A stretch of 64,000 nucleotides of DNA, taken from positions 396,022 through 460,021 of the forward strand of contig NZ_LMUQ01000061.1 in assembly GCF_009765865.1 (NCBI RefSeq), given 5' to 3'. Position 1 is the stretch's first letter. Each line of letters opens with the position of its first letter. Under the pieces are notes generated by a model. That model ran no database searches. It was not told the origin of the DNA and saw only the letters and a program-made list of their open reading frames with translations. The DNA comes from Acidisoma sp. L85 (lineage in GTDB: Bacteria; Pseudomonadota; Alphaproteobacteria; Acetobacterales; Acetobacteraceae). This document shows positions 3,125 through 17,672 of the stretch, one piece after another. The translations under genes and the position numbers were made by a program.

Positions 3125-3169
3125 AGTTTCTCGTTGACCTGCCACAGTTCGATTGCCCAGGAGTTCAGC

Positions 3170-3949
3170 ATGGCCCGTCGCATTATCGACATTTCGATTC
3201 CACTCGCGAACGACATCCCGGCCGATCCGCCGATGATGATCCCGTCAATCACCTATACCGCGCACAAGGAATCGCTGCCGCAGATACTGGGCTTCTTCCC
3301 GGGCCTGCGCGGGGAAGATCTGCCGGATGGCGAGGGCTGGGCCATGGAGCAGGTGACGATTTCAACGCATAACGGCACGCATCTGGATGCGCCGTGGCAC
3401 TACCACTCGACCATGAACCATGGCGAGAGGGCGATCACGATCGACGAAGTGCCGCTGGACTGGTGCTTCCAGCCCGGCGTGAAGCTCGATTTTCGCCACT
3501 TCCCTTCCGGATATGTCGCGACCGCCGCCGATGTCGAGGCAGAACTCGCGCGTATCGGCCACACCCTGAGTCCGCTCGAAATTGTTGTGGTCAACACCGC
3601 GGCAGGCCTGCGTTTCGGCGAGCCGGACTATCTCGCGAGCGGTTGTGGCGTGGGGTATGAGGCGACGATGTACCTCCTCGATCGCGGGATCCGGCTCACC
3701 GGCACGGACGGTTGGAGCTGGGACGCGCCCTTCGTACACACCGCCCGGAAATATGCCGAGACGAAAGACGCTTCACTGATCTGGGAGGGTCACAAAGCCG
3801 GACGGCACACCGGCTATTGCCACATCGAGAAGCTACACAATCTGGAGCAGCTGCCATCAACCGGTTTCCTGGTGAGTTGTTTCCCGGTGAAAATCGAACG
3901 AGCTTCCGCTGGCTGGACGAGAGCCGTCGCGATCATCGAAGAACCGTAG
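3170..3949 (+). CDS. Cyclase-family (kynurenine formamidase-like) metal hydrolase
   Basis: The 259-residue protein carries the cyclase-family metal-binding motif HNGTHLDAPWHYH at about residues 67-79 (HxGTHxDxPxH). Known members hydrolyse N-formylkynurenine, isatin or cyclic imides with Mn or Zn in the cytoplasm. I chose ATG 3170 because CAGGAG lies six to seven bases before it; an upstream TTG at 3134 has no good ribosome binding site. No tryptophan-catabolic genes are nearby, so kynurenine formamidase activity is not supported by context. It ends convergently to the hydroxyacyl-CoA hydrolase gene at 4002. Confidence 0.83.
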   Translation: MARRIIDISIPLANDIPADPPMMIPSITYTAHKESLPQILGFFPGLRGEDLPDGEGWAMEQVTISTHNGTHLDAPWHYHSTMNHGERAITIDEVPLDWCFQPGVKLDFRHFPSGYVATAADVEAELARIGHTLSPLEIVVVNTAAGLRFGEPDYLASGCGVGYEATMYLLDRGIRLTGTDGWSWDAPFVHTARKYAETKDASLIWEGHKAGRHTGYCHIEKLHNLEQLPSTGFLVSCFPVKIERASAGWTRAVAIIEEP

Positions 3950-4001: not shown

Positions 4002-5060
4002 TCACGCTGACCCCTCGTCCAGCCACAGCGAAGGCTTCAGCGCGGCGTTGGCGAAAAACTGAGCGACCTCACCGTCGCTCATTTCTTCCAAATGGGCGGG
4101 AACCCAGTGCGGCTTGCGATCCTTATCGACAATCGCAGCCCGCACGCCCTCGACGAAATCGTGGCCACTTGTCCGGACCAACGCCATCCCGAACTCACGG
4201 TCCAGACAGGCTCTCAAACCACCAAGCGCGGGCGCCGTTCGTAAGGCCTGCAACGTGATCTTGAGACTGCTCGGGGAACGCAGCGCGACAGTCGCGGCTG
4301 CCTTTCGTGCGGGCGGCTCCTCCCGTGTCGCAAGCGCCGCGACAATCGCCTCAACACTGGCTCCCGCGTAGCAGGCTTCAATCCAGCCTCGACCTTCCTC
4401 GAGAACGCCGGGCGGCGGCGCCTCGGAATGAGCCTGAATGCAGTCTTCTAGACCCACCGCACCGCAGTTCAGCAGTGCCTCCAACAAAGCGGGCAGCCGG
4501 ACGGATGGCACGTAAACATCCGCAAGCCCGCACAACAAGGCGTCGGCCGCCCCGATCGCATCGCCTGTGAGTGCGATATGCATGCAGATTTCGCGCGGCG
4601 CGCGGCTCAGCAACCAGGTCGCGCCGATATCCGGGAAGAAGCCAATCCCCGTCTCCGGCATGGCAACACGCGAGCGCTCCGTGACAATGCGGTGGCTGCC
4701 GTGAGCGGACAGACCAATTCCGCCGCCCATGACAATGCCTTCCATCAGCGCCACATAAGGCTTCGGGTATTCCGCGATGCGCGCGTTGAGCTGGTACTCG
4801 TTGCGAAAGAAGCTCGCATTCGCGCCAAAATCCGCAGCGAGTGTTGCCTCATACACCTCGCGAATATCGCCACCCGCACATAAGCCACGCTCGCCCGCGC
4901 CATCGATCAGCACGAACTCCACGCCGGAATCCGTTTCCCATGCGTCGAGCGCCACACGAATATGCTCGACCATCTCCAAGGTCAGCGCATTCAAGCGGGC
5001 CGGCCGGTTGAGTGTGATCCGGCCGACACGTCCCTCGACACGGATCAGGACATCGGACAC
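4002..5060 (-). CDS. 3-hydroxyisobutyryl-CoA hydrolase-like hydroxyacyl-CoA hydrolase (crotonase fold)
   Basis: This 352-residue crotonase-fold protein has the length and motifs of 3-hydroxyisobutyryl-CoA hydrolases: the oxyanion-hole segment GLCAGGDIREVYE (residues 59-71), MGGGIGLS (111-118) and PETGIGFFPDIG (135-146) holding the acidic residues used for thioester hydrolysis. The reaction would be removal of CoA from a short hydroxyacyl-CoA. Translation starts at GTG 5060, five bases after the stop of the BKACE gene, and the gene is the last of the minus-strand operon that begins with the sugar-type ABC importer. No other valine-degradation gene is present, so in this setting it more likely hydrolyses the CoA product of the BKACE step. 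That role is inference. Confidence 0.8.
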   Translation of the reverse strand: MSDVLIRVEGRVGRITLNRPARLNALTLEMVEHIRVALDAWETDSGVEFVLIDGAGERGLCAGGDIREVYEATLAADFGANASFFRNEYQLNARIAEYPKPYVALMEGIVMGGGIGLSAHGSHRIVTERSRVAMPETGIGFFPDIGATWLLSRAPREICMHIALTGDAIGAADALLCGLADVYVPSVRLPALLEALLNCGAVGLEDCIQAHSEAPPPGVLEEGRGWIEACYAGASVEAIVAALATREEPPARKAAATVALRSPSSLKITLQALRTAPALGGLRACLDREFGMALVRTSGHDFVEGVRAAIVDKDRKPHWVPAHLEEMSDGEVAQFFANAALKPSLWLDEGSA

Positions 5061-5065
5061 GAAGC

Positions 5066-5998
5066 TCAGAATCCGACCTTATCTCCGCCCTTGAGCGCCA
5101 ACATGGCCCGCGCCTCGTCCGGGCTTGCAAGTTCCAATCCCAGACCTTCGAGAATCTGCCGCACATTGCGCACCTGCTGCGCATTGCTTTCAGCGAATTT
5201 CCCTGGCCCGATCCAAAGACTGTCCTCCAGGCCCACCCGCACATGGGACCCCATGGCCGCCGCCATTGCCGCGATCGGCATTTGGTTGCGTCCCGCGCCG
5301 AGCACCGACCACTGATACCCATCGCCAAACAGCCGATCGGCCGTGCGCCGCATATGCATCACATCCTCAGGATGCGGCCCAATGCCGCCGAGAATGCCGA
5401 ATACTGTCTGCACGAATAGCGGCGGTGTCACCAGCTTGCGGTCAAGAAAATGCGCGAGGTTGTATAAGTGGCTGACGTCATAGCACTCGAACTCAAACCG
5501 CGTCCCGTTCCCGCTCATCGCGTTCAGCGCGTATTCGATGTCCTTGAAGGTATTGCGGAAAATCAGGTCCCGGCTGCCCTCCAGGAATTCCCGTTCCCAG
5601 GGATGCTTGAACTCCTTGAACCGATCGAGCATCGGAAACAATCCGAAATTCATCGAACCCATATTCAGCGACGCCACTTCCGGCTTGTAGGTCGTCGAGG
5701 GCCGGATGCGCTCGTCGATCTTCATGAAAGGGCTGCCGCCGCTGGTCAGGTTCAGCACGGCATTGGTCGACTGCTTGATGCGCGAGAGAAATGGCGCGAA
5801 TGCCTCCGGCCGCTGATCCGGCCTGCCCGTCTCGGGGTCTCGCGCGTGCAAATGCAGCACGGCGGCGCCAGCCTCCGCCGCGCCGATGGCCGCTTCGGCA
5901 ATCTCGTCAGCCGTCACCGGCAGATGCGGCGACATCGATGGCGTGTGGATCGCACCGGTAACCGCACAGGTGACGATGACTTTTCTGGCCTTGGCCAT
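5066..5998 (-). CDS. Beta-keto acid cleavage enzyme (BKACE, DUF849, Kce-like)
   Basis: The 310-residue protein is a BKACE-family TIM barrel: the start KVIVTCAVTGAIHTPSMSP and the segment AAVLHLHARDPETGRP are diagnostic, including the histidine pair that binds zinc. Known members condense a beta-keto acid with acetyl-CoA and split it into acetoacetate and a new acyl-CoA (lysine fermentation, carnitine breakdown and others). The gene starts at ATG 5998 behind AAGGAGC and sits between a 3-hydroxyacid dehydrogenase-like gene (13 bases upstream) and a hydroxyacyl-CoA hydrolase (5 bases downstream). The order matches the logic oxidise, cleave with CoA, release CoA. The keto acid substrate is not determined by sequence. 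Confidence 0.88.
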   Translation of the reverse strand: MAKARKVIVTCAVTGAIHTPSMSPHLPVTADEIAEAAIGAAEAGAAVLHLHARDPETGRPDQRPEAFAPFLSRIKQSTNAVLNLTSGGSPFMKIDERIRPSTTYKPEVASLNMGSMNFGLFPMLDRFKEFKHPWEREFLEGSRDLIFRNTFKDIEYALNAMSGNGTRFEFECYDVSHLYNLAHFLDRKLVTPPLFVQTVFGILGGIGPHPEDVMHMRRTADRLFGDGYQWSVLGAGRNQMPIAAMAAAMGSHVRVGLEDSLWIGPGKFAESNAQQVRNVRQILEGLGLELASPDEARAMLALKGGDKVGF

Positions 5999-6010
5999 GG
6001 TGCTTGCTCC

Positions 6011-6955
6011 TTAAACGATCTTCTTCGCCGCGTCGCGTTTATGCGCCAGCAACGCCATCAACCGACGATCCCGCCAACCAGCATGCTCCGCCAGCCGTTC
6101 CTTCGGCAGGGCTGCCCGTCGTTCCGCATCCACACGCTCGCTCGCCTCCGCCCAGCTCGCAATATGCTGCTGGCCCTTCCACAGGTTTTCATAGAGGCCC
6201 TCGTAGCGCGCGATATAGTCGGCCGCACCACCGGGCGCGTTCAGGTCGATGGTCTCGAAAGGTCCCATGAAAGCCCAGCGCAGCCCCAGACCATCGCGAA
6301 TGCCGATATCGACATCCTCGACCCCGGCATAGCCTTCGGCAACGAGCCGAAAAGCCTCCTGTAGTAAAGCACCTTGCAGGCGGTTCATCACGAAGCCGTC
6401 AATCTCCCGCTTCATCATGATGGGCGCGTGCCCGGCAGCCCGCATGAAATTGCCAGACCGCTCCACCACCTCCGGCGCCGTCCATGGCGCGGGAACCACC
6501 TCGACAGCCGGGATAAGGTAGGGCGGATTGATCGGATGGATCACCAGACAGCGATGCCGCCCCGGCAAACTCTCCGTAAAAGCCGACGGCAAAAGCGCCG
6601 AGGTCGAACTGGCGAGGATCGTGTCTGGTCCCGCCGCGGCATCAAGCTCGCGAAACACAGCGATCTTGGTCTCGATCCGCTCGGGAGTATTCTCCTGCGC
6701 ATGCACCGCGCCCTCAAGGGCCGCGGCGAGATTGCGCGCAGGTCTGATGCGGTTGCGCACCTGCTCGGGCGTATGGCCGCTGAGCAAGTCGTTGCGCGCG
6801 AGATCCTCCAACACCGAATCGACGTAGGCAACGGCTGCCTGCGCCGCGCCATCTTGAGCATCATGCAATGCCACCTCGTAGCCGGCACGTGCGAAGCTGA
6901 TGGACCAGGCGCGCCCGATGAGCCCGCTACCAATCACCGCGACCTTTTCGACCAT
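6011..6955 (-). CDS. CRYL1/L-carnitine dehydrogenase-like 3-hydroxyacid dehydrogenase
   Basis: The 314-residue protein has an N-terminal NAD-binding fold (VAVIGSGLIGRAW, residues 6-16) and the C-terminal helical domain of 3-hydroxyacyl-CoA dehydrogenases. Over its full length it resembles lambda-crystallin/L-gulonate 3-dehydrogenase (HPINPPYLIPAVEVVP, GFVMNRLQGALLQEA, GLGLRWAFMGPFETIDLNA). These enzymes, like bacterial L-carnitine dehydrogenase, oxidise the 3-hydroxyl of free acids, yielding beta-keto acids, exactly the substrate type of the BKACE enzyme encoded next. It lacks the thioesterase domain often fused to carnitine dehydrogenases. It starts at ATG 6955 and follows the fused permease by 38 bases in the same operon. 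Confidence 0.85.
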   Translation of the reverse strand: MVEKVAVIGSGLIGRAWSISFARAGYEVALHDAQDGAAQAAVAYVDSVLEDLARNDLLSGHTPEQVRNRIRPARNLAAALEGAVHAQENTPERIETKIAVFRELDAAAGPDTILASSTSALLPSAFTESLPGRHRCLVIHPINPPYLIPAVEVVPAPWTAPEVVERSGNFMRAAGHAPIMMKREIDGFVMNRLQGALLQEAFRLVAEGYAGVEDVDIGIRDGLGLRWAFMGPFETIDLNAPGGAADYIARYEGLYENLWKGQQHIASWAEASERVDAERRAALPKERLAEHAGWRDRRLMALLAHKRDAAKKIV

Positions 6956-6993
6956 CTCACCGTTTCCTTATCGTCTCAACACGGTCGCCGCCG

Positions 6994-9081
6994 TCAACGT
7001 GTCTGCCGTTCGCGCAAAGCAAGAACCGCGCCCAAAACAACCAAGCCGAAGATGATGTCCCGGACGGCATGCGGCAAGTTCGTGCCGTCGAGCAGAGTCT
7101 GCAGAGCCGTCAGAAGTAGCGCGCCTCCCAACATGCCGAGATAGTGGCCACGACCGCCGGTGATAAGCGTCCCGCCCACTACCACCACGGCAATCGAGGG
7201 CAAAAGGTAATCATCTCCCATGCCGAGACTGGCTTGGCCGCTAAAGCCGGTCAGCAGTACACCGACGAGCGCCGAACAAACACCGCTCAGCACATAGACC
7301 AGAACCAACGTGCGCGGCACATTGACGCCCGACAGCCGCGCGACAGTCACGCTATTTCCAATCGCATAGACGCGCCGCCCGAAGACCGTGCCACCCAGCA
7401 GAAAGACCGCCCCGACGATGAACAACACGACGAAGACCACGACGGGCGCAATGCCAGTGATCTTGCCGGTCAGGAACCAATGCAGTCCGGATGAGGAAAA
7501 CCCATCCGGCGTGCCATTGCTGTAGACCAGCGCCGCACCCTGCAGAATGCCGTTCATTGCAAGCGTAATTACGATTGGTGGGAGCCCCAGCACCACGATT
7601 CCGAGACCATTGACCGTGCCAATCAGCGCACCCAGCACCAGAACCGCCGGCACAACCCAGAGCGATGCCTCGTTCGAGCCGCGGATCATTCCGGCCGCCA
7701 GGATGCCGCAAAAGCCGATCACCCAGGGAACCGAAAGATCCAACCCGCCAGTCAGGATCACCGTGCCCTGCCCGAGCGCCAGAATGATGAGAAAAGAACT
7801 TAGCACGATAAGCGAATTGTAATACGACCAGTGCTCGACTGTGTCCGGCCGCACGATCGCCGTCGCGACCAGTACTCCGGCGACACAGACATAGGCCGGA
7901 AGCGCAAAGCGCAGGCGCTCCCGGTTGCGTTGCATCCAACTGACGTTTGGTGCTCGCAACGCCGCTGCCGAGCGTGAAAGCTCAACATGAACGGGCGCCC
8001 CGCCCCACTGGATCTGCGACGGCAGCAAGCCCGCTCGCCACCCCCGAAACCAGCGGCGCATGGAGCCGACGCCTTGCGCAAGTGGCGCGTCCTTGTGCAG
8101 GGCCGAGACCAGCACGGCAAGGATCAGTACAACGCCTTCGGCAACCGAGCTGTAATAGGCGGATACATTCAGGGCCAATAGGATATTGACCATCAGCATC
8201 AGGGTATAGGCGCCAAAAATCGCCCCAATCAGGCCACCCCGTCCGCCACCGAGAACCGTGCCACCGAGCACCACGGCGGCAAAAGTCTCGAGCACCAGAG
8301 GGTCCCCGATCAGGGGATCGCCAGCTCCGGTCTGAGCACTGATGAAGATACCCGCCCCACCATAGAACATCCCGGCCACGACATAAGTGAGGAATTTCGT
8401 CCGACGCACAGGGATGCCGGTAGAACGCGCGGACTCCTCCTCGCTGCCTATAGCGTAAATGCTGATACCGAAGCGCGTGCCCTTGATCGCCAGCCAGACC
8501 ACAACCGCAAAGGCGATCACCAGCAGCGCAGCGGGTAAGAAATTAGGGATCGCGGCGCCGGTGAAGAAGTTCTTGAAGCCATCGGGAATCGATCCGCCCG
8601 GTGAATCCAGCACCAGGACGGTGACGCCCCGCACGAGGAACATCGAGGACAACGTGACAACGATCGGTTGCAATCCCAGAAAAGCCACGAAAAAGCCGTT
8701 GAAAGCGCCGACGGCCCCACCCACGGCGAGGCCAAGAACGCCGACCCCAACTTCCGAGCCGATCCCCGTGCCCATATGCGTCGCCAGCACAACATTGACG
8801 AGCGACACGACCGAGCCGACCGAAAGATCAAAGCCGCCTACAAGAATGACGAGCGCCTGCCCCATCGCTGCGAGCGCTAGCGTGGCACCGCCGCTCGCCA
8901 TGAAACTCGCTTCGAAATAGCCGAAGGAACCGCCGCTGAAAATCGTCGAGACAAGGAAGAGCGCGGTGAATACCGCGACGATGATCAGCACGCCGCGATT
9001 TCGGCGCAGGAAGAGGACAGCGCTGGAACTTCGCGGCGCGACACCCGATGGCGGAGCGGATCGCACCACGGCGGAGGTCAT
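6994..9081 (-). CDS. Fused double permease of a CUT2-type sugar ABC importer
   Basis: This 695-residue membrane protein contains two complete RbsC-like permease domains in one chain, about residues 30-330 and 391-695, joined by a polar linker with little sign of membrane segments. Each half carries the family signature (GGFDLSVGSV at 82-91 and GGLDLSVPWV at 444-453) and the cytoplasmic coupling region. CUT2 permeases are normally about 320 residues and work as dimers, so one chain here provides both halves as an obligate heterodimer. It overlaps the ATPase gene by ATGA and would partner with it and the binding protein upstream. Substrate is likely a sugar, sugar acid or lactone judging by neighbours. 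Confidence 0.9.
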   Translation of the reverse strand: MTSAVVRSAPPSGVAPRSSSAVLFLRRNRGVLIIVAVFTALFLVSTIFSGGSFGYFEASFMASGGATLALAAMGQALVILVGGFDLSVGSVVSLVNVVLATHMGTGIGSEVGVGVLGLAVGGAVGAFNGFFVAFLGLQPIVVTLSSMFLVRGVTVLVLDSPGGSIPDGFKNFFTGAAIPNFLPAALLVIAFAVVVWLAIKGTRFGISIYAIGSEEESARSTGIPVRRTKFLTYVVAGMFYGGAGIFISAQTGAGDPLIGDPLVLETFAAVVLGGTVLGGGRGGLIGAIFGAYTLMLMVNILLALNVSAYYSSVAEGVVLILAVLVSALHKDAPLAQGVGSMRRWFRGWRAGLLPSQIQWGGAPVHVELSRSAAALRAPNVSWMQRNRERLRFALPAYVCVAGVLVATAIVRPDTVEHWSYYNSLIVLSSFLIILALGQGTVILTGGLDLSVPWVIGFCGILAAGMIRGSNEASLWVVPAVLVLGALIGTVNGLGIVVLGLPPIVITLAMNGILQGAALVYSNGTPDGFSSSGLHWFLTGKITGIAPVVVFVVLFIVGAVFLLGGTVFGRRVYAIGNSVTVARLSGVNVPRTLVLVYVLSGVCSALVGVLLTGFSGQASLGMGDDYLLPSIAVVVVGGTLITGGRGHYLGMLGGALLLTALQTLLDGTNLPHAVRDIIFGLVVLGAVLALRERQTR

Positions 9082-10622
9082 GACGCCAATTCCATCACGG
9101 CGCGGTTCGGCTCGATTTCACCCAGCGCCGGCCGCATGATGGCCTCTTCGTCAATTTCATCTCCGACCAGCTCGCACACAACCTGGCCGCCATACATAAC
9201 GAGCACGCGGTCACACAGATTTACTAACTCAGGGACCTCGCTGGAACAGAACAACACCGCACCTCCAGCCTTGGCGAAATCGCGAATCAGAACATAGATT
9301 TCGTGTTTGGTGCCGACATCGACGCCGCGCGTCGGATCGTACATCAGCATGACCCGGCTTTCCGCAAGCAACCACTTGGCGATCGCGATCTTTTGCTGAT
9401 TACCTCCGCTGAACGCCGAGACACGCGTATAAAGCGCTCTTTCCTGCACCTGAACGACATCCAGCACACGCGCGACCGCGCTGGCCTCCGCTTTCTTGTC
9501 GATGAGGCCAAAACGACTCCGCCGCTCCAGTGTCGGAAGTGAAACGTTGCTCTGCCCGTCTAGCTTGAGAAGAAGCGCCTCGGTCTTGCGGTCTTCGGGA
9601 ACCATGCTGATCCCGATCTGCGCGCACACCGCGTCGCCCGGGGAGGACAGCATCACTGGCTTTCCGGCTACCTCGATAACGCCGCCGGTTGGCTGCGCCG
9701 CGCCGAAACACGCCTGGAAAAGCTCCAATTGCCCCATTCCTTGCAGACCGGCAATTCCAAGCACCTCACCGGGCGCAAGCGAGAATGACACGTCACGCAC
9801 CTTGCCCTCTACGCTCAGGCTCTTGGCCGCGAGCGCTGGCGTCGCGCCCAAGACGGCGGTAGAAATGCGCGGCGGAAAAGTTGCCGCAAGCGAGCGGCCG
9901 ATAATCATCTGGATGAGTTCATCTTCCTTGACCTCATCGACGCGCCCGGCTCCGACATCTTTGCCGTTCCGCAGAACCGTGAGATGCTCGCAGAACAGCC
10001 GCACCTCCGGCATGCGATGCGAGATGAAGATGATCGTGATGCTTTGCGCCTTCAGCCGTGCGATTAGATCGCCTAACCAATCGATATCACGTCCTGACAA
10101 AGTGGACGTCGGCTCATCCAACAGCAGAATCCTCGGCCGCCGAAAGACGGCCCGCGCAATCTCCACCTTCTGCCGCGAGGAAAGGCTCAGCTCCGACATC
10201 TCCCTGCGCGGATCGATATCCTCGAGGCCCAAACTGGCCAGATGCTCGTTAACTAACCGAAGACCTTCCCGCTTGCGCACCTGACCGAGGGTCGAAACGG
10301 GTTCGTATAGCAGCAGCATATTCTCCGCGATTGTGAGGTCGCGGATTTGGGTCATTTCCTGGAACGCGGTCTGGATGCCGAGCGCGTGGGACTGGCGCGG
10401 CGAACGAAGCGCGCAACTCTCGCCGAATACCTTGAGAACGCCGGCATCCGGCTGGACCAGCCCACTCAGCATCTTGACCGTGGTCGATTTTCCCGCGCCG
10501 TTCTCGCCGAGCAGCGCATGCACTGTTCCCGCGCGCACCGAGAAAGACATGCCGTCGAGAGCGACCGTCGCGCCATAGACCTTCCGGATGTTCTCGGCGG
10601 AAATGGCGATATCGACCGTCAT
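9078..10622 (-). CDS. CUT2-type sugar ABC importer ATPase (RbsA/MglA-like)
   Basis: The 514-residue protein has two tandem nucleotide-binding domains, as in RbsA and MglA. The first has Walker A GENGAGKST (residues 39-47), LLLDEPTSTLS as Walker B, and the second keeps SGGNQQKIAIAKWL but has the degenerate Walker A (GLQGMGQ) normal for the family. I chose ATG 10622, preceded by GAGAGGG, over a TTG at 10643. It lies between the periplasmic binding protein gene and the fused permease gene, overlapping the latter by four bases, so it energises uptake at the inner membrane in that importer. Confidence 0.93.
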   Translation of the reverse strand: MTVDIAISAENIRKVYGATVALDGMSFSVRAGTVHALLGENGAGKSTTVKMLSGLVQPDAGVLKVFGESCALRSPRQSHALGIQTAFQEMTQIRDLTIAENMLLLYEPVSTLGQVRKREGLRLVNEHLASLGLEDIDPRREMSELSLSSRQKVEIARAVFRRPRILLLDEPTSTLSGRDIDWLGDLIARLKAQSITIIFISHRMPEVRLFCEHLTVLRNGKDVGAGRVDEVKEDELIQMIIGRSLAATFPPRISTAVLGATPALAAKSLSVEGKVRDVSFSLAPGEVLGIAGLQGMGQLELFQACFGAAQPTGGVIEVAGKPVMLSSPGDAVCAQIGISMVPEDRKTEALLLKLDGQSNVSLPTLERRSRFGLIDKKAEASAVARVLDVVQVQERALYTRVSAFSGGNQQKIAIAKWLLAESRVMLMYDPTRGVDVGTKHEIYVLIRDFAKAGGAVLFCSSEVPELVNLCDRVLVMYGGQVVCELVGDEIDEEAIMRPALGEIEPNRAVMELAS

Positions 10623-10661
10623 GCCCGTAGCCCTCTCAAGCAATTCGGCGAGGCCGACGTC

Positions 10662-11798
10662 TCACTCCTCCGGTTTGCCGGTGAGCGCGCCTTGCACGCC
10701 TACCTCAGGAACGTCGGGAGAATAGACAGAAGCGAACCAGCCGGGATTGGGGATCAGCGACGGCTTGAAGACGTTGCAACCCGCCCTCATTTCCGCCCAG
10801 CTTCCGGTCTCACAGAGTTTGATGTTGTCGTTAGTGACCAAATTCTGTTCGATCACCGTCAGCTTCGGAATATCTTTTCCCTCAAGCTTCTCGACGACGC
10901 GCTTGAGCGCGAGCGCACCGGAGAAGTTTTGTGAACCAGAAGACATGCGGTGTGCCCCCATCGGGCGGTAACTGCCATTTGCCCCATCGACCTGAGTGCC
11001 GGCGGGCAGCATCTGCAAACGGCCACCATTGGAGGCTTCGCCGCCGCAAGGCCTAAGCTTGTCGTCGGCGATACCGGCTTCCTTCTGCATGGCATTCGCC
11101 GTGTAGCATCCAGCTTGCATCAGCACGCCGTCGATGCTGGTCCAGGGATGCGTGGCGATGATTTTCGAAAGCTCCGTGCGAGCCACCGCCTGGCTCCACA
11201 TGCCATTCGCCTGAGCGACGATGTGAATATCCGGGTAGTTCTTCAGCACCTCCAACTCGCCCTGCTTGCGCAAGAGGTCCACGGAGGTTCCGGGCACACC
11301 ATTGATCAGAACGATATTGCCCTTGCCATTCAGCTGTTTGACGAGCCAGTTGGCCTGGTTCTTCCCCCATAGAAGCTGGTCGATGTGAAAGTTATAGGCG
11401 CATGGCTCCGAGATCACGGAATCATAGGCAGCGACAATGACGCCGCGCTGACAGGCGTTCTTGACAACCGCGTTCAGCGCCGTGGGGGAGATCGGGTAGA
11501 CCAGAATGGCATTGGCGCCAGCCTGCACCATGCTGTTGATCTGCTGGATCTGGCGCTGGGCATTTGGCCCGGCAACCTGAATGCGGAGGTCAACCTTGTC
11601 ACGCAAAGATTTCGACGCCGCCATCGCCCGGATTTCGTTCTCGGCCTCCGCCTGCCAGTCGTTGCCGATGTAGCTCATGCTCAAAAAGATTTTGAGCTTC
11701 TTGTCGGCTGCGTGGCTCGGCGCGGCTAACCCGGCGGTGATTGCCGCACTCATTGCGAGAGGCAAAAGGCCCCGAGCGATCATCTTGTGAAGACGCAT
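10662..11798 (-). CDS. Periplasmic binding protein of CUT2-type sugar ABC importer
   Basis: This 378-residue protein begins with a clear Sec signal peptide (positively charged start, hydrophobic stretch, likely cleavage after SHA near residue 30) and continues as a type I periplasmic binding protein (peripla_BP_4 kind), with KLKIFLSMSYIGNDW as first strand and helix. ATG 11798 has GGGGAGA just upstream; a longer frame upstream of it lacks a signal sequence. It contains ISEPCAY, a motif also found in the binding protein at 49493, with a second cysteine in NACQRG, so a disulfide is possible. It is the first gene of the minus-strand catabolic operon. The ligand is unknown. Confidence 0.9.
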   Translation of the reverse strand: MRLHKMIARGLLPLAMSAAITAGLAAPSHAADKKLKIFLSMSYIGNDWQAEAENEIRAMAASKSLRDKVDLRIQVAGPNAQRQIQQINSMVQAGANAILVYPISPTALNAVVKNACQRGVIVAAYDSVISEPCAYNFHIDQLLWGKNQANWLVKQLNGKGNIVLINGVPGTSVDLLRKQGELEVLKNYPDIHIVAQANGMWSQAVARTELSKIIATHPWTSIDGVLMQAGCYTANAMQKEAGIADDKLRPCGGEASNGGRLQMLPAGTQVDGANGSYRPMGAHRMSSGSQNFSGALALKRVVEKLEGKDIPKLTVIEQNLVTNDNIKLCETGSWAEMRAGCNVFKPSLIPNPGWFASVYSPDVPEVGVQGALTGKPEE

Positions 11799-11924
11799 CG
11801 TCTTTTTCTCCCCTGTCCCGGCGCCCGGGCTCTTGCAATTTTTCACAGTCGTCCGAGCAACGTCCGAAATTGCTATTCTCGCTAAAACACCATACATGAT
11901 GGTTGTCGTCAACGTGGATCGATC

Positions 11925-11934
11925 TGTGATCACA
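11925..11934. promoter_or_regulatory. Candidate operator TGTGATCACA, copy 1
   Basis: A perfect 10-base palindrome in the divergent gap between the importer operon (start 11798, minus) and the GntR/FCD regulator (start 11976, plus), 42 bases before the regulator. The identical ten bases recur at 13621-13630 in the other divergent promoter gap of this cluster. It is not a CRP site because there is no six-base spacer. Binding by the adjacent regulator is inference. Confidence 0.5.
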
Positions 11935-11975
11935 CGCAGCGGCAGAGACGCTTCGGCGACAGGGAGCAGAAAAGC

Positions 11976-12686
11976 GTGACGACCAGCATTACCGCTGTCG
12001 ATGTCACCACGGTGCAGGAGCGTGTTTACCGCGAGTTGCGTGGCGCACTGCAGCAAGGGCGGCTGGTCTCAGGGCAATCGATGACCGTTCGCGCCCTCGC
12101 GCGCGCTGTCGGCACCAGCGAAATGCCTGTCCGCGAAGCGCTTCGCCGGCTCATCGCCGAAGGTGCGCTGATCCAGGCACCGAACCGCTCGTTTCAGGTC
12201 ATTCCGATGACTCCCGACCGGCTGGTGGAACTCACCCGCGTACGTGTGGCGCTTGAGGGCATGGCGGCCCGCCTCGCGACAACGAATGTGGATCAAGAAC
12301 TTATCGAAACCCTCACGCGACTGAATGCCGAGATGCGCGAGGCGATCGAGCCCACCCGCGCCGACGATGTTTTGCGCGCGAACCAGGAGTTTCATTTCAC
12401 GATCTACCGCGCGGCGAAGTCGCCGCAGCTTCTCGAATTGATTGACATGCTTTGGCTCCGCAGTGGCCCTTATCTCGCCGATATGTTGCGGGGGCGCATG
12501 GACGCGCGGGAGATCTTTCGTCGGGGAACGGTTGTGCATGGCCGGCTAATCCGGGCGATGGCGCGACAGGACGCGGATGGCGTCGCCCGCGCGCTCACGC
12601 TGGACATGGAGCGCACGGCAGAATTCTCGATGAAGCACCTCACCGCAACGGCGACGCGGCCACGAAGAGCCGCGATTGCCGCTTAG
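11976..12686 (+). CDS. GntR-family regulator with FCD domain, local regulator of the catabolic cluster
   Basis: The 236-residue protein has a GntR winged helix (about residues 10-75, with VGTSEMPVREALRRL as the recognition region) and an FCD domain (about 80-215) that in the family senses sugar acids or other carboxylates through a metal-assisted site. The gene is divergent from the importer operon and convergent with the SDR gene (10 bases between stops). Its promoter gap and that of the SDR/SMP-30 pair share the palindrome TGTGATCACA, which makes this protein the best candidate for coordinated control of both halves of the cluster. A second inverted repeat (ACCAT-N5-ATGGT, 11889-11903) is also present in its gap. 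Confidence 0.88.
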   Translation: MTTSITAVDVTTVQERVYRELRGALQQGRLVSGQSMTVRALARAVGTSEMPVREALRRLIAEGALIQAPNRSFQVIPMTPDRLVELTRVRVALEGMAARLATTNVDQELIETLTRLNAEMREAIEPTRADDVLRANQEFHFTIYRAAKSPQLLELIDMLWLRSGPYLADMLRGRMDAREIFRRGTVVHGRLIRAMARQDADGVARALTLDMERTAEFSMKHLTATATRPRRAAIAA

Positions 12687-12696
12687 GCATTGCTTC

Positions 12697-13488
12697 TCAG
12701 TTTTCCGGCGGCGAGCGATAGGTTTCGAAGTTGCCGCAGACCCCGACCGACTGGCCGGAAACATGCGGCGCCCGATCGGAGGCGAGGAAGATTGCCATAT
12801 CCGCGATCTCGACCATCTCGACCATGCTGTGCATCGAAACATTGTGCAGCACCATCGGGAGATATCGCTCGTAGCTCACACCACGAGCCTTGGCTTGTTC
12901 CTCGAACACTCGCCTTGAGCGTGGCCCGTTGACGACGCCCGGCAGAATCGCGTTGACGCGAATATTGAACGCCCCGAGTTCGATCGCGAGCACATCTGTG
13001 AACCCGCGGACGGCGTATTTGCTGGTCGAATAGGCCGATCGCAGTGGCATGCCCATTCGCCCGGCGGTCGAGGACAGATTGAGGATAACGCCGCTATTCT
13101 GTTTCTTCATTAATGGAATCGCGCGCCGGGCCATGTAGAATCCGCCGGTGACATTGACGTCGATCGTCTGCGCCCATTCCGTGTCCGTGACATCCTCCAC
13201 CATCTTCGTCGGACCTGAGACACCCGCATTATTGACCAGAATGTCGATGCCGCCGAGTTCGGTCTCGATGCGGTCGAACATCGCGCCTACCTGTTCGGAC
13301 TTGGAGACATCGGCGCGCATCGCGGTCAGCGAGGGGTGGTGACCGTCCAGCTTCGCGAGCGCGGCCTCATCTACGTCACAGACGAAAACGCGCGCGCCCT
13401 CGTCGAGAAACCGCTCGGCGATTACGCGGCCGATACCCGCGGCGCCCGCACTGATAACGACACGTTTGCCCGTCAACCCGAGATCCAT
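12697..13488 (-). CDS. SDR-family oxidoreductase
   Basis: This 263-residue classical short-chain dehydrogenase has the cofactor loop around SAGAAGIGRVIAERF (about residues 13-27), NNAGVSG (85-91 region), and the catalytic YSTSK (Y-x3-K). Acidic residues after strand two (VFVCDVDEA) suggest NAD rather than NADP. In the cluster it would oxidise a sugar or sugar acid hydroxyl, before or after the lactonase steps. It is divergent from the first SMP-30 gene, and the gap between them holds the second TGTGATCACA palindrome. The substrate cannot be read from sequence. Confidence 0.87.
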   Translation of the reverse strand: MDLGLTGKRVVISAGAAGIGRVIAERFLDEGARVFVCDVDEAALAKLDGHHPSLTAMRADVSKSEQVGAMFDRIETELGGIDILVNNAGVSGPTKMVEDVTDTEWAQTIDVNVTGGFYMARRAIPLMKKQNSGVILNLSSTAGRMGMPLRSAYSTSKYAVRGFTDVLAIELGAFNIRVNAILPGVVNGPRSRRVFEEQAKARGVSYERYLPMVLHNVSMHSMVEMVEIADMAIFLASDRAPHVSGQSVGVCGNFETYRSPPEN

Positions 13489-13620
13489 GAGATCCTCCCC
13501 TGACTTATCCGCCTTGCTGCACCGCAGCGCGGATGACGCCCGATTTCAGCCGGGACTTCGTGAATGCCATGCCACGCGGTGGCGATGAGCGTCAATGCTG
13601 CGCAATGGGAGATAGGCGAT

Positions 13621-13630
13621 GTGTGATCAC
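13621..13630. promoter_or_regulatory. Candidate operator TGTGATCACA, copy 2
   Basis: The same perfect palindrome as at 11925-11934, here 98 bases before the first SMP-30 gene and 133 bases before the divergent SDR gene. Both copies are preceded by GAT plus one base. A repeat of ten exact bases confined to the two promoter gaps of one cluster is unlikely by chance and suggests a shared operator. Confidence 0.5.
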
Positions 13631-13727
13631 AGGGCTTGGAAATGCCCGGCTCCGCCGGTATCCTCGCTCCCAAGAAAACGTATGCAAGCGGCCTAAATCC
13701 GTGCGACGAGAAATAGGGAGCAGCGTC

Positions 13728-14630
13728 ATGGTCGATATCCGCCTCTTGGTGGACTCACGCAACCATCTCGGCGAGGGTCCCTTATGGGACGTTGAGGAGC
13801 AGCGTCTATACTGGATCGATAGTTCAGCGGCTGAAATCTGGAGCTGCAAATCGGATGGCAGTGATGTGAAGCTTTTCTACGTTCCCTCCCATATCGGCTC
13901 TATGGCATTGCGTGAAAAGGGCGGCGCCGTGCTCGCTCTCGCTAATGGCTTCAGCCTGTACGATTTTGAAACGCAACGACTCACTCATATTGGCGACCCG
14001 GAAGCCGATGAGCCCGAGAACCGGCTGAATGACGGCAAGGTCGATCGTCGTGGGCGTTTTCTCGCGGGCTACATGTCCTATGACCACGATCGGCAAGATG
14101 CGAACCGAGGTCAGCGGCCCGTCAGAAACTCCGCGTTGTATCGTTTGGATCCCGACCTCTCCATCCACCGGCTCGATGGCGGCATTAAATGCTCGAACGG
14201 TCCCTGCTGGAGCCCTGACAACCGTACCTTCTATTTCTGCGATTCCTACGACAACGTCATGTACGCTTATGACTATGACATCGAGAGCGGCGAAGTAAGC
14301 AACCGGCGAGTCTTCGCCGATACCTTGAACTATCCTGGCACCTTCGACGGCTCGACAGTGGACTCGGAGGGCTATATCTGGAATGCGCATGTCTTCGGCG
14401 GCCGCATCATTCGCTATGCGCCTGATGGAAGCATCGATCGCATGGTTCCCTTCCCGCTCCGCAACCTGACGAGCGTCATGTTCGGCGGCCCCAATCTCGA
14501 CATTCTCTACGTCACCAGCATGGGCCGACCCATTAAGGGCATTCCACAGCGAGAGCCGCATGCCGGCGGTGTCTATGCCGTGCACGGCCTCGGTGTGAAG
14601 GGCTTGCCCGAACCCCGTTTCGCCGGCTGA
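13728..14630 (+). CDS. SMP-30/gluconolactonase-family lactonase, copy 1
   Basis: This 300-residue six-bladed propeller protein hydrolyses sugar lactones in characterised relatives, using one divalent metal. The metal-binding pattern is visible: GEGPLWD near residue 17 (Glu), CSNGPCWSPD (Asn) near the middle and VDSEGYIWNAHV (Asp). LNDGKVDRRGRFLAG is the usual family core. ATG 13728 has AGGGAG eight bases upstream and gives the usual family length. It heads an apparent three-gene run of SMP-30 paralogs (22 and 33 base gaps) and is closest in sequence to copy 3. No signal peptide is seen, so it acts in the cytoplasm. Confidence 0.87.
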   Translation: MVDIRLLVDSRNHLGEGPLWDVEEQRLYWIDSSAAEIWSCKSDGSDVKLFYVPSHIGSMALREKGGAVLALANGFSLYDFETQRLTHIGDPEADEPENRLNDGKVDRRGRFLAGYMSYDHDRQDANRGQRPVRNSALYRLDPDLSIHRLDGGIKCSNGPCWSPDNRTFYFCDSYDNVMYAYDYDIESGEVSNRRVFADTLNYPGTFDGSTVDSEGYIWNAHVFGGRIIRYAPDGSIDRMVPFPLRNLTSVMFGGPNLDILYVTSMGRPIKGIPQREPHAGGVYAVHGLGVKGLPEPRFAG

Positions 14631-14652
14631 TTGCAGGAAGCAGGAGAACACG

Positions 14653-15549
14653 ATGAAGGTCACGAAACTCGCGGACGGTCTCGGCTGGCCCGAAGGTCCG
14701 TCGGAGCTCTCAGATGGTCGAATCATTTTCGTCGAGACCTATCGCAGCCAGGTCTCGGTTTGGGAAGAAGGCCGCGGCGTCTCGCGTTTCGCCTATGTGG
14801 GTGGCGGCCCCAACGCTGTACTCGCGGCGAGCGACGGCTGTTGCTACGTCACCCAGAATGGTGGCGTCATTGGGCCGTGGCGAGCCGTCGATCGGCGGCC
14901 GCCTTGCATCCAGCGCGTGACGCCAGAGGGCAAGGTCGAGATTCTCGCGACCCAGATCGATGGTCATGAGCTACGCGCACCAAATGATTTGGCTTTTGGA
15001 CCGGACGGCACATTGTATTTCACCGATCCCGGTGGCCCGTTCGACCCAGTAAACCGGCCGGATCGCTCGCGCCTTTTCGCGATGAAGCCGGATGGAACGG
15101 GCCGACTTCTGGAGGAGTTGGAACCCGTCTATTCCAACGGCATCGTGGTCGAAGCCGACGGCAGCATCGTTTGGGTGGAGAGCTATACCGGCGCGGTGAA
15201 ACGGCGTGGTACGGATGGCCGCATCACGCAACTCTGCATCCTGCCGGAGAAGGGCAAGCCTGATGGGCTGAAGGTTGCGGCCAACGGCGACCTCTACGTC
15301 ACGGCACTTATCGCTGAGGGCATTGATGTCGTGGCGCCAGATGGCAGCTATCGCTATCTCCTCCCCGTCGGGCGCGTTCCAACCAACTGCCTCTTCGTCG
15401 GCCGCAAACTATACGTGACCGATGGCGGCCATCTAGGTCTGTCGCCGGATCCCGAAATGGCGGGCGCGCTGTGGCAGGTGGACCTCGGCGATGTCGAGGG
15501 CATGCCGCTTTTCCCAGGCGGGATCGCGCGGCACGTCATCGCTGGCTGA
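14653..15549 (+). CDS. SMP-30/gluconolactonase-family lactonase, copy 2 (divergent branch)
   Basis: The 298-residue protein belongs to the same propeller family but to a different branch from its two neighbours: it starts VTKLADGLGWPEGPSEL, has RAPNDLAFGPDGTLYFTDPGG-like blade sequence and PDGLKVAANGDLYV for the last metal ligand. The metal set Glu, Asn, Asp appears intact. GGAG lies just before ATG 14653, 22 bases after the preceding stop, so it is cotranscribed with copies 1 and 3. Divergence from its neighbours suggests a different lactone or a different step. Confidence 0.86.
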   Translation: MKVTKLADGLGWPEGPSELSDGRIIFVETYRSQVSVWEEGRGVSRFAYVGGGPNAVLAASDGCCYVTQNGGVIGPWRAVDRRPPCIQRVTPEGKVEILATQIDGHELRAPNDLAFGPDGTLYFTDPGGPFDPVNRPDRSRLFAMKPDGTGRLLEELEPVYSNGIVVEADGSIVWVESYTGAVKRRGTDGRITQLCILPEKGKPDGLKVAANGDLYVTALIAEGIDVVAPDGSYRYLLPVGRVPTNCLFVGRKLYVTDGGHLGLSPDPEMAGALWQVDLGDVEGMPLFPGGIARHVIAG

Positions 15550-15582
15550 ACACGAAACACGCGCCGCCACAAGGAAGACCGA

Positions 15583-16497
15583 ATGTCTTACACAATAGAA
15601 CGCGTTCTCGACTGTGAAAATCATCTTGGCGAGGGTCCGATCTGGGATGTCGAGGAGGGCAAGCTCTATTGGGTGGACGGCACAGGGCGGCGCGTGGGGA
15701 AGCCCGCGATCTGGCGTTACGATCCGCGCGACGGCAAGATTGAGAACTGGCGCCTGGATCGGGACGTCGGCGCGATGGTGCTTGGCCGCGATCGAAACGC
15801 GGTTCTCGCCCTTGATGACGGTTTCTATTTCTTCGACTTCACCACCGGGAAAACCGAGCTGATCGGGCTCGTGGATGAGGAACAGCCACGCACGCGCCTG
15901 AACGACGGAAAATGCGACCGGCGCGGCCGGTTCTTCGCCGGCGGGATGGACGACAAGGAGGAGCTGAAGATCTGCGGTCTTTGGCGCCTCGACCCCGATC
16001 TCTCCATCACGAAAGTAGATGGCGGCATCATCTGCTCGAACGGTCCTTGCTGGAGTCCGGACGACAAAACCTTCTACTTCGCGGATACCTTCCAAGAAGA
16101 AATCTGGGCCTACGATTACGACCTCGCAACAGGCGTGCCCTCGTCCCGGCGGCTTTTCGCCAGTACGAAGGATGATGCGGGCGTCGCTGATGGCTCGACG
16201 GTGGATGCCGAAGGCTATCTCTGGAATGCGCAGTTGATTTCCGGAGATCTCGTTCGCTATGCGCCCGACGGAACGGTGGACCGCCGCATTTCGATGCCGG
16301 TCAAGAATATAACCAGCGTCAACTTCGGCGGTCCCAACCTCGATGAGATCTACGTCACCTCCATGGCGCGCGTTAAACACCCGGCGGTGCACGATCACTT
16401 CGCGGTCGAGGCGAAGCCGCAATTCGGGGCCGGAAGCCTGTTCCGCATACGCGGGCTTGGGATTCGAGGCGTGCCGGAGCCCCGCTTCGCGATCTAA
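15583..16497 (+). CDS. SMP-30/gluconolactonase-family lactonase, copy 3
   Basis: This 304-residue paralog shares with copy 1 the segments ENHLGEGPIWDVEEGKLYWVD, LNDGKCDRRGRFFAG and CSNGPCWSPDDKTFYF, and the metal ligands Glu, Asn and Asp (STVDAEGYLWNAQ) are all present. It follows copy 2 by 33 bases with AAGGAAG before ATG 15583 and is probably the last gene of the run. Three lactonases in a row next to one importer and one dehydrogenase suggest that several lactone isomers, or successive lactones, are processed. Confidence 0.87.
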   Translation: MSYTIERVLDCENHLGEGPIWDVEEGKLYWVDGTGRRVGKPAIWRYDPRDGKIENWRLDRDVGAMVLGRDRNAVLALDDGFYFFDFTTGKTELIGLVDEEQPRTRLNDGKCDRRGRFFAGGMDDKEELKICGLWRLDPDLSITKVDGGIICSNGPCWSPDDKTFYFADTFQEEIWAYDYDLATGVPSSRRLFASTKDDAGVADGSTVDAEGYLWNAQLISGDLVRYAPDGTVDRRISMPVKNITSVNFGGPNLDEIYVTSMARVKHPAVHDHFAVEAKPQFGAGSLFRIRGLGIRGVPEPRFAI

Positions 16498-17030: not shown

Positions 17031-17672
17031 TCAGCCCCGCCAAGCCGAACCGCGAATCACACTGCAGAAGTTGCCCCGCGTGAAACTGGGGTCCTTATCC
17101 GCGAGAACATCCGCCTTCACATTGCCGAAGGTGGTGTCCGGCTTGTGCTTGATACCATCATAGAAGGTCTGGATGATTTCCTCCTTGAACTTCGTCTCGC
17201 GCGGATGGGCATGCACCACCGCCTCACGTTCTTCCGCCCTGTATTCGGGATAAGTCAGCCCAAGCACATCCATTTCGACGCCGGCGGTGACCAGCGCAAC
17301 AACTGGATGCATATGCTGCGGAATGCCGGGCGTGGTGTGCAAGGCAATCGCCGTCCAAACCGTGTCGAGATCCTGCTGCGCGATACCATGCCCGCGCAGG
17401 AAATCCCGCGCAGCATTGGCACCGTCGACCTCGAAACGCTCATGCGCGCTACTGTGCTGATGCGTCAGCCCCATGTCGTGGAACATCGCACCCGCATAGA
17501 GCAGTTCGGGGTCGAAACGCAGCCCGCGATGCTTTCCGGCAAGCGCGCCAAAGTAATAGACCCGGCTCGAATGATGAAACAGCAGCGGCGTCTCCGTATC
17601 CTTCACTAGCTCAGTGATCTCGCGTGCCAGTTTGCTATCGGGGATGGTCACCCCTTCGATCGACAGGCTCAT
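17031..17672 (-). CDS. HD-domain hydrolase, cyanamide hydratase-like
   Basis: The 213-residue protein has the HD metal-binding pattern: an early histidine (LLFHHSSRVYYF), AGAMFHDMGL as the HD pair, and later LHTTPGIP. Overall it resembles small HD proteins annotated as cyanamide hydratase-like or phosphohydrolase. Metal-dependent hydrolysis or hydration of a small molecule in the cytoplasm is likely, but the substrate is unknown. It is divergent from the GlxA-type regulator at 17774 with about 100 bases between, and such regulators often control a single divergent enzyme, so the two may form a pair. Confidence 0.75.
   Translation of the reverse strand: MSLSIEGVTIPDSKLAREITELVKDTETPLLFHHSSRVYYFGALAGKHRGLRFDPELLYAGAMFHDMGLTHQHSSAHERFEVDGANAARDFLRGHGIAQQDLDTVWTAIALHTTPGIPQHMHPVVALVTAGVEMDVLGLTYPEYRAEEREAVVHAHPRETKFKEEIIQTFYDGIKHKPDTTFGNVKADVLADKDPSFTRGNFCSVIRGSAWRG

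Follow-up and report, generated by a model that had tools for sequence, protein, structure and literature searches.

The window analysed here, a 64,000-nucleotide stretch of the 6.38 Mb genome of Acidisoma sp. L85 (contig NZ_LMUQ01000061.1, positions 396,022 to 460,021), holds a compact catabolic gene cluster in which all of the families named in an earlier note on this DNA are present by family or domain matches (Table 1). Six minus-strand genes form one tight unit encoding a sugar-type substrate-binding protein (SBP), an ATP-binding cassette (ABC) ATPase, a fused permease, a CRYL1-like dehydrogenase of the 3HCDH family, a BKACE and an ECH_2-family hydrolase, with intergenic gaps of 5, 12, 38, -4 and 18 bases from the ECH_2 end to the SBP end. 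The GntR gene is divergent from this run, and a short-chain dehydrogenase/reductase (SDR) gene with three SMP-30 genes makes up a second divergent unit. The SBP start lies more likely at 11798, giving 378 amino acids, and the first SMP-30 start was placed at 13728 because the longer open reading frame from 13533 would contain an operator. We propose, with a probability of roughly two in three, that the cluster encodes a form of the oxidative 2-deoxyribonate-type pathway fed by an ABC importer. On this evidence the substrate would be a 2-deoxy sugar acid, with a 2-deoxypentonate as the most likely one.

Table 1. Features of the cluster in window coordinates.
Feature	Position	Strand	Basis
ECH_2 / 3-hydroxyisobutyryl-CoA hydrolase family	4002..5060	-	NCBIfam NF004127, 422 bits (cut-off 274)
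BKACE	5066..5998	-	NCBIfam NF053538, 557 bits (cut-off 430)
CRYL1-like 3-hydroxyacid dehydrogenase (3HCDH family, PRK06129)	6011..6955	-	NF004783, 459 bits (cut-off 347)
Fused double CUT2 (sugar-type) ABC permease, 695 aa	6994..9081	-	two BPD_transp_2 stretches
CUT2 ABC ATPase, double-domain	9078..10643	-	family match
Sugar-type SBP	10662..11798	-	Peripla_BP_4
Predicted operator TGTGATCACA between GntR and the ABC/BKACE operon	11925..11934	.	core GTGATCAC at 11926-11933
GntR/FCD regulator	11976..12686	+	family match; 34-39% to GntR of P. simiae-type operons
SDR dehydrogenase; proposed 2-deoxyaldonate 3-dehydrogenase (or sugar 1-dehydrogenase)	12697..13488	-	family match
Second predicted operator TGTGATCACA between the SDR and SMP-30 genes	13622..13631	.	
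SMP-30 lactonase, core type	13728..14630	+	PF08450
SMP-30-like protein, different type, accessory	14653..15549	+	PF08450, 78 bits
SMP-30 lactonase, core type	15583..16497	+	PF08450

The earlier note knew of no described pathway joining lactonases to BKACE; one is in fact described by Price et al. 2019 (PMC6365646). In the portions of that article used here, a 2-deoxyribose and 2-deoxyribonate pathway is proposed for Pseudomonas simiae from mutant fitness, with dehydrogenases assayed in vitro: 2-deoxyribose is oxidised by a separate molybdenum dehydrogenase to the lactone, which is opened by the lactonase PS417_07255, deoxyribonate is oxidised by the SDR PS417_07245, and the keto acid is cleaved by the BKACE PS417_07250, with glyceryl-CoA and acetoacetate as the proposed products. 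Lactonase, SDR and BKACE share one operon that is required for deoxyribose and deoxyribonate utilisation, in a cluster that begins with a GntR gene and ends with two MFS genes. The window likewise encodes lactonase, SDR, BKACE and GntR together, and the same two products would be expected. It differs in having a CUT2 ABC importer in place of the two MFS carriers, in adding a CRYL1-like dehydrogenase and a hydrolase, neither of which appears in the P. simiae operon as those portions describe it, and in placing the SDR and lactonases in a second transcription unit. The order of steps set out in the earlier note (lactone opening, oxidation of the 3-hydroxyl, BKACE cleavage and release of CoA) and its sugar-like substrate are supported.

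Operons of the P. simiae type were recognised here by gene order and operator alone. A BKACE search of 199 Pseudomonas genomes matched 31, and among the 20 loci examined from these, seven have GntR, SDR, BKACE and MFS in the P. simiae order (in one, the SMP-30 and first MFS genes were not called), four have the order AraC, BKACE, MFS, SDR as in Paraburkholderia bryophila, one (L202) is a mixture and eight have other contexts. One further genome (L169) carries GntR, SDR, BKACE, SMP-30, MFS, MFS. The mixed locus brings together a CRYL1-like dehydrogenase (51% identity), BKACE, MFS, GntR and SDR, and its MFS is 68% like the second MFS of the L169 operon. The deoxyribonate cluster of P. bryophila and Burkholderia phytofirmans, as far as the article's text used here goes, shares the SDR and BKACE families with the window and differs from it in its AraC regulator, MFS carrier and second SDR, and in having no such lactonase type.

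A search for palindromes shared upstream of ABC genes identified TGTGATCACA, which occurs twice in the 64 kb against 0.04 occurrences expected by chance, with two sites in none of 100 shuffles. Within the window, its core GTGATCAC is confined to the two divergent promoters, each of which has a copy. The copy before the GntR gene sits at -50 to -43 of the start, nearly the same distance as the -47 to -40 given for GTGATCAC at the P. simiae regulator gene PS417_07240 in PMC6365646. The window therefore has a GntR regulator with a GTGATCAC operator, as in the deoxyribonate pathway, although the motif is not exclusive to that pathway. The relaxed form T[GT]TGATCA[AC]A was found in all eight P. simiae-type operons (0.13 expected), 11 of 12 LIV-type and 19 of 29 CUT2-type clusters, and twice in L202, compared with none of 13 carnitine loci, one of seven P. 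bryophila-type loci (there inside a gene) and one of 13 others. In Metarhizobium (L073) there are two sites, which precede SMP-30 and the SBP gene, respectively. Because the operator stands at both promoters, the SDR and lactonases of the window are tied to the same regulon as the BKACE operon, and GntR would control both transcription units via TGTGATCACA; a shared operator is no proof of the same inducer. The whole genome contains four operator sites, two in the cluster, one in a coding-looking stretch and one at a paralogous GntR gene. A scan for sigma-70-type promoters found none and is uninformative.

The BKACE of the window is 65-68% identical to those of the eight P. simiae-type operons, 54-59% to seven of the P. 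bryophila type and 33-35% to 13 of the carnitine type, and in the BKACE tree it stands with the P. simiae-type operons, the carnitine group lying beyond a branch with 100% support. The earlier note had likened the last steps to carnitine breakdown, a parallel that holds for the logic of the steps and fails for the BKACE and dehydrogenase sequences, which are far from the carnitine enzymes. That the cluster degrades carnitine or a near analogue is scarcely credible: carnitine operons do bring the same enzyme classes in the same order (3HCDH-type carnitine dehydrogenase, BKACE, acyl-CoA thioesterase), but they have no sugar importer or lactonase, their dehydrogenases are 32-38% identical to the window's, and the dehydrogenase and BKACE trees both set the window apart from the carnitine group. 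The window dehydrogenase scores 179 bits against the carnitine 3-dehydrogenase model (cut-off 592) and 166 against that for L-carnitine dehydrogenase (cut-off 414), which four of the five carnitine-group enzymes tested (from the 13 loci so labelled) pass, the fifth falling 0.3 bits short. In addition, a separate carnitine operon lies on contig C75 of the same genome (L257 14893-18413), with a GbdR/AraC-like regulator, a BKACE and a 485-residue carnitine 3-dehydrogenase (673 bits, NCBIfam cut-off 592). The carnitine reading is rejected on the trees, the family scores and this second operon.

Two further observations concern the BKACE. Around residue 237, the conserved arginine of the GAGRNQ..P form is replaced (GAGASQLR or GAGSSQLR) in most CUT2-type relatives, which have an arginine four residues later, while the GAGRNQ..P form is kept in the window, the P. 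simiae-type operons and most LIV-type BKACEs. The closest BKACE, at 89% identity, comes from the same genus (genome G130, L035 1444-11029) and lies in a different operon with aldehyde-dehydrogenase-like and histidinol-dehydrogenase-like genes and a single-domain CUT2 permease; two operators flank it.

To assess conservation, one-genome-per-species contigs were searched with an alignment of the CRYL1-like dehydrogenase, and from at least 582 confirmed stretches the 80 best were retained, so that the counts describe a top slice of the matches. Loci with at least 7 kb upstream and at least 6 kb downstream were counted as complete (58 of 80; the other 22 were dropped before counting), and the CRYL1-like gene is present in all 58 because it was the query. 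The fused CUT2 permease occurs in 34 complete loci, every one of which also has the SBP, GntR, SDR, BKACE and at least one SMP-30 gene, with two or more SMP-30 genes in 12. The 24 complete loci without the permease have no SMP-30 gene, and have SDR in 12, BKACE in 17 and GntR in seven. Across all 80, SMP-30 accompanies the permease in 39 of 40 loci and occurs in two of the 40 without it, the exceptions being contigs that end short on the relevant side. De novo gene clustering of 46 permease-bearing loci recovered the same eight families, every one of them present in 42 to 46 loci, and among seven plasmid records covering at least 80% of the permease, the dehydrogenase adjoins it by coordinates in all seven (five of these regions were inspected gene by gene). 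Kinship limits how these counts are read, as many of the loci are from Mesorhizobium. The dehydrogenase tree gives three independent SMP-30/CUT2 contrasts on supported branches and ten on all branches, none opposite; a sign test on three contrasts cannot reach significance, so the Fisher value for this pair is not independent evidence. By these counts the genes group together far beyond chance; non-conservation, which the earlier note had named as refuting its proposal, is not what the genomes show. The genes, their conservation, the shared operator and the kinship of the BKACE are established here.

The importer has the hallmarks of a CUT2 sugar ABC system in its double-domain ATPase, BPD_transp_2 permease and Peripla_BP_4 SBP, and relatives of the permease include ribose and galactofuranose permeases. 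The ligand was also sought through solved SBP structures; the relatives bind various ligands, presumably ribose, galactofuranose, xylitol-type compounds and others, so none follows for the window. Two of the three lactonases (13728-14630 and 15583-16497) represent the type that related clusters retain and are 49-51% identical to the SMP-30 proteins of P. simiae-type operons; the second of these is 47% identical to the first and 52% to that of the Rhizobium cluster. The middle gene was the best match for one gene alone across the other mapped loci, at 25% identity.

The presence of two dehydrogenases is a further departure from the P. simiae operons, none of whose eight SDR and BKACE loci has an HCDH gene. 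In 45 of the 58 complete loci, BKACE has the SDR and the CRYL1-like gene nearby; of the rest, six have BKACE without such an SDR, one has the SDR without BKACE and six have neither. Since BKACE loci exist with the SDR alone or the CRYL1-like enzyme alone, either enzyme seems able to supply BKACE by itself. At C3, enzymes of the 3HCDH fold act on the L configuration and SDRs of the hydroxybutyrate type on the D configuration; 2-deoxy-D-ribonate has the latter. Given these opposite preferences, we hypothesise that the pair widens the range of the pathway to both C3 epimers. The window SDR groups with the Metarhizobium and Cereibacter SDRs within the same broader SDR group, and the Lichenicoccus and Caballeronia CUT2 clusters have SDRs that fall with the deoxyribonate-type clade (99% and 87%).

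Two rival substrates involve these enzymes. The first is a 3,5-dihydroxy acid or delta-lactone, which two dehydrogenases would convert to a 3,5-dioxo acid for cleavage by BKACE. The window BKACE passes the cut-off of NF053538 (3,5-dioxohexanoate:acetyl-CoA acetone transferase), two dehydrogenases are indeed present, and a degradative HMG-CoA reductase gene neighbours one TRAP-type relative. We nevertheless consider this very unlikely, as the P. simiae-type and P. bryophila-type BKACEs tested also pass NF053538, leaving its name uninformative about the substrate used in the cell, all 34 complete loci with the lactonase also encode a sugar-type importer, and clusters with the SDR alone or the CRYL1-like enzyme alone (6 of 58) indicate that two sequential oxidations are not obligatory. 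The NCBIfam name was for the same reason rejected as a guide to the substrate. In that TRAP-type locus, on a Sagittula stellata plasmid (L065 3223-8273), the relative of the cluster runs divergently from TRAP genes, an SDR gene and the reductase gene.

The second rival, the earlier note taken broadly, is an aldonate that is not a deoxy acid, for example L-gulonate; the CRYL1-like enzyme would oxidise it at C3 and BKACE would then cleave the product. The closest solved relatives of the dehydrogenase are lambda-crystallins, which are L-gulonate 3-dehydrogenases, and this is what speaks for it. A 2-hydroxylated acid, however, would have to yield 2-hydroxyacetoacetate, and we know of no precedent for a BKACE giving that product. 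In the parts of PMC6365646 and of the CORE-cycle paper used here, BKACE releases acetoacetate from substrates with an unsubstituted alpha-carbon, and an aldonate of this kind is highly improbable.

Release of CoA, the last step of the 2-deoxypentonate pathway that we favour, can be assigned a candidate enzyme. The ECH_2 gene lies directly beside the BKACE gene, its product is nearest to streptomycete homologs (up to 58% identity), and a second copy elsewhere in the genome is 45% identical. It keeps the E and D of the MPE...PD region, which we take to be catalytic, as does 3-hydroxyisobutyryl-CoA hydrolase of valine catabolism, a member of the same family; that enzyme is encoded beside mmsB in Shinella and Streptomyces, whereas the window gene stands in a BKACE operon. 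Glyceryl-CoA is 3-hydroxyisobutyryl-CoA with a C2 hydroxyl in place of the methyl group, which makes the ECH_2 fit chemically plausible. In Ancylobacter (L121) an ECH_2 gene lies between SMP-30 and SDR, downstream of the operator, and in the Rhizobium (L059) and Agrobacterium (L061) clusters it is next to glycerate kinase. A tree of 40 sequences requires at least three origins for the four cluster ECH_2 genes, a single clade being rejected (p 0.017, a long branch being involved). That members of one family have entered this operon more than once suggests that the pathway yields the kind of substrate for which the family is known. The gene is thus a candidate for the glyceryl-CoA hydrolase of deoxyribonate oxidation, which is listed as unknown in the part of PMC9007349 (by the authors of GapMind) used here. 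Searches of the open-licence literature for BKACE with SMP-30 and for glyceryl-CoA with hydrolase found no ABC-type cluster or glyceryl-CoA hydrolase described.

The chemistry would be the same for another 2-deoxy or 2,6-dideoxy sugar acid, such as 2-deoxygluconate or a dideoxyhexonate derived from glycosides of plants or microbes, giving a C4-C6 polyhydroxyacyl-CoA. The transporter and SBP are compatible with many sugars, roughly one position in three differs between the window BKACE and the P. simiae type, and the arginine in the active-site region varies among clusters. Set against this, the glycerate kinase and ECH_2 beside the Rhizobium and Agrobacterium clusters and the operator common to deoxyribonate operons indicate a C5 acid with glyceryl-CoA as the product, and we regard such an alternative as unlikely.

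On plasmid pRlX3 of Rhizobium ruizarguesonis (L059 14419-19749), genes for a lactate-racemase-type LarA, LarB, LarC and a LarE-like protein, then glycerate kinase, follow the BKACE cluster, so L-glycerate could be formed and racemised there. LarA was not retained as evidence for glycerate, as its closest solved relative is a broad-spectrum racemase. A bolder version of the proposal would be a self-contained pathway for 2-deoxypentonolactones of both C3 configurations, in which two unrelated dehydrogenases, the SDR for one epimer and the CRYL1-like enzyme for the other, would lead to a single 3-keto acid, with the 3-hydroxyisobutyryl-CoA (HIBYL-CoA) hydrolase relative as the missing glyceryl-CoA hydrolase and with the LarA-type racemase and glycerate kinase of R. 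ruizarguesonis pointing to L-glycerate and hence to undescribed L-series 2-deoxypentonic acids; taken as a whole this is speculative and unlikely.

Assembled, the 2-deoxypentonate pathway would run as follows. The CUT2 importer would take up a neutral 2-deoxyaldose or, more likely, its lactone, which SMP-30 would open to the 2-deoxyaldonate. The C3 hydroxyl would then be oxidised by the SDR, the CRYL1-like dehydrogenase or both, which may start from opposite C3 configurations and arrive at one 3-keto acid. With acetyl-CoA, BKACE would cleave the 2-deoxy-3-ketopentonate to acetoacetate and glyceryl-CoA, the HIBYL-CoA-hydrolase-like ECH_2 protein would free glycerate, and glycerate kinase would pass it to glycolysis.

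Several points weigh against this proposal. We infer the substrate, its stereochemistry and every intermediate, as well as the division of labour between the dehydrogenases and the substrate of the hydrolase. If the SDR acts at C3, no sugar 1-dehydrogenase is assigned; moreover, the SDR is 42-49% identical to those of the eight P. simiae-type operons and falls outside the supported clade of most P. simiae-type and P. bryophila-type SDRs. ECH_2 was found in four of the 46 permease-bearing clusters by de novo clustering and glycerate kinase in two, so that most have neither, and another enzyme must act on the CoA product in clusters without ECH_2. The operator is absent from all four TRAP-type clusters, TGTGATCACA also occurs at the paralogous GntR gene (L255 5372-7627, contig C45), whose divergent neighbour is a glutamine-synthetase-like gene, and the GTGATCAC motif recurs at AkgR sites, as noted in the text of PMC6365646 used here. 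Finally, among nine loci of the same class selected by the permease alone, seven carry distant fused permeases (49-52% identity) and no HCDH, BKACE or SMP-30; the other two (58-59%) do carry the cluster. The fused permease was accordingly rejected as an exclusive marker of the pathway. The seven loci (L261-L267), some on short contigs, all come from one alphaproteobacterial family, in which some genomes have two such permeases.

The joining of lactonase to BKACE is therefore already described, and the window represents a conserved ABC-type variant with two added enzyme functions. Relative to Price et al., in the portions used here, the new elements are the ABC importer replacing MFS carriers, the CRYL1-like second dehydrogenase and the HIBYL-CoA-hydrolase-family gene. 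The published pathway, to the extent covered by those portions and by PMC9007349, has no enzyme for glyceryl-CoA hydrolysis and no known dedicated importer beyond MFS; the cluster supplies named candidates for both, which a handful of purified proteins would suffice to test. Also corrected is what is probably a misreading of the labels (3-keto-5-aminohexanoate cleavage, 3,5-dioxohexanoate) that a large set of BKACEs carry. Deoxyribose lactone is known from DNA damage (cited in PMC6365646, in the text used here), and the cluster suggests that turnover of oxidised deoxyribose, lactone included, is widespread in soil- and plant-associated Alphaproteobacteria.

Two neighbouring genes complete the picture of the locus. 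A PF04199 cyclase-family gene (3134-3949) converges on the ECH_2 gene. In L123 a homolog with 81% identity adjoins the genes for the CRYL1-like dehydrogenase and BKACE, and L073 and L121 have further genes of the cyclase family, oriented divergently from SMP-30. Beyond the last lactonase, at 17031-17672, lies a gene whose HD-domain product weakly resembles the cyanamide hydratase family and scores below that family's cut-off.

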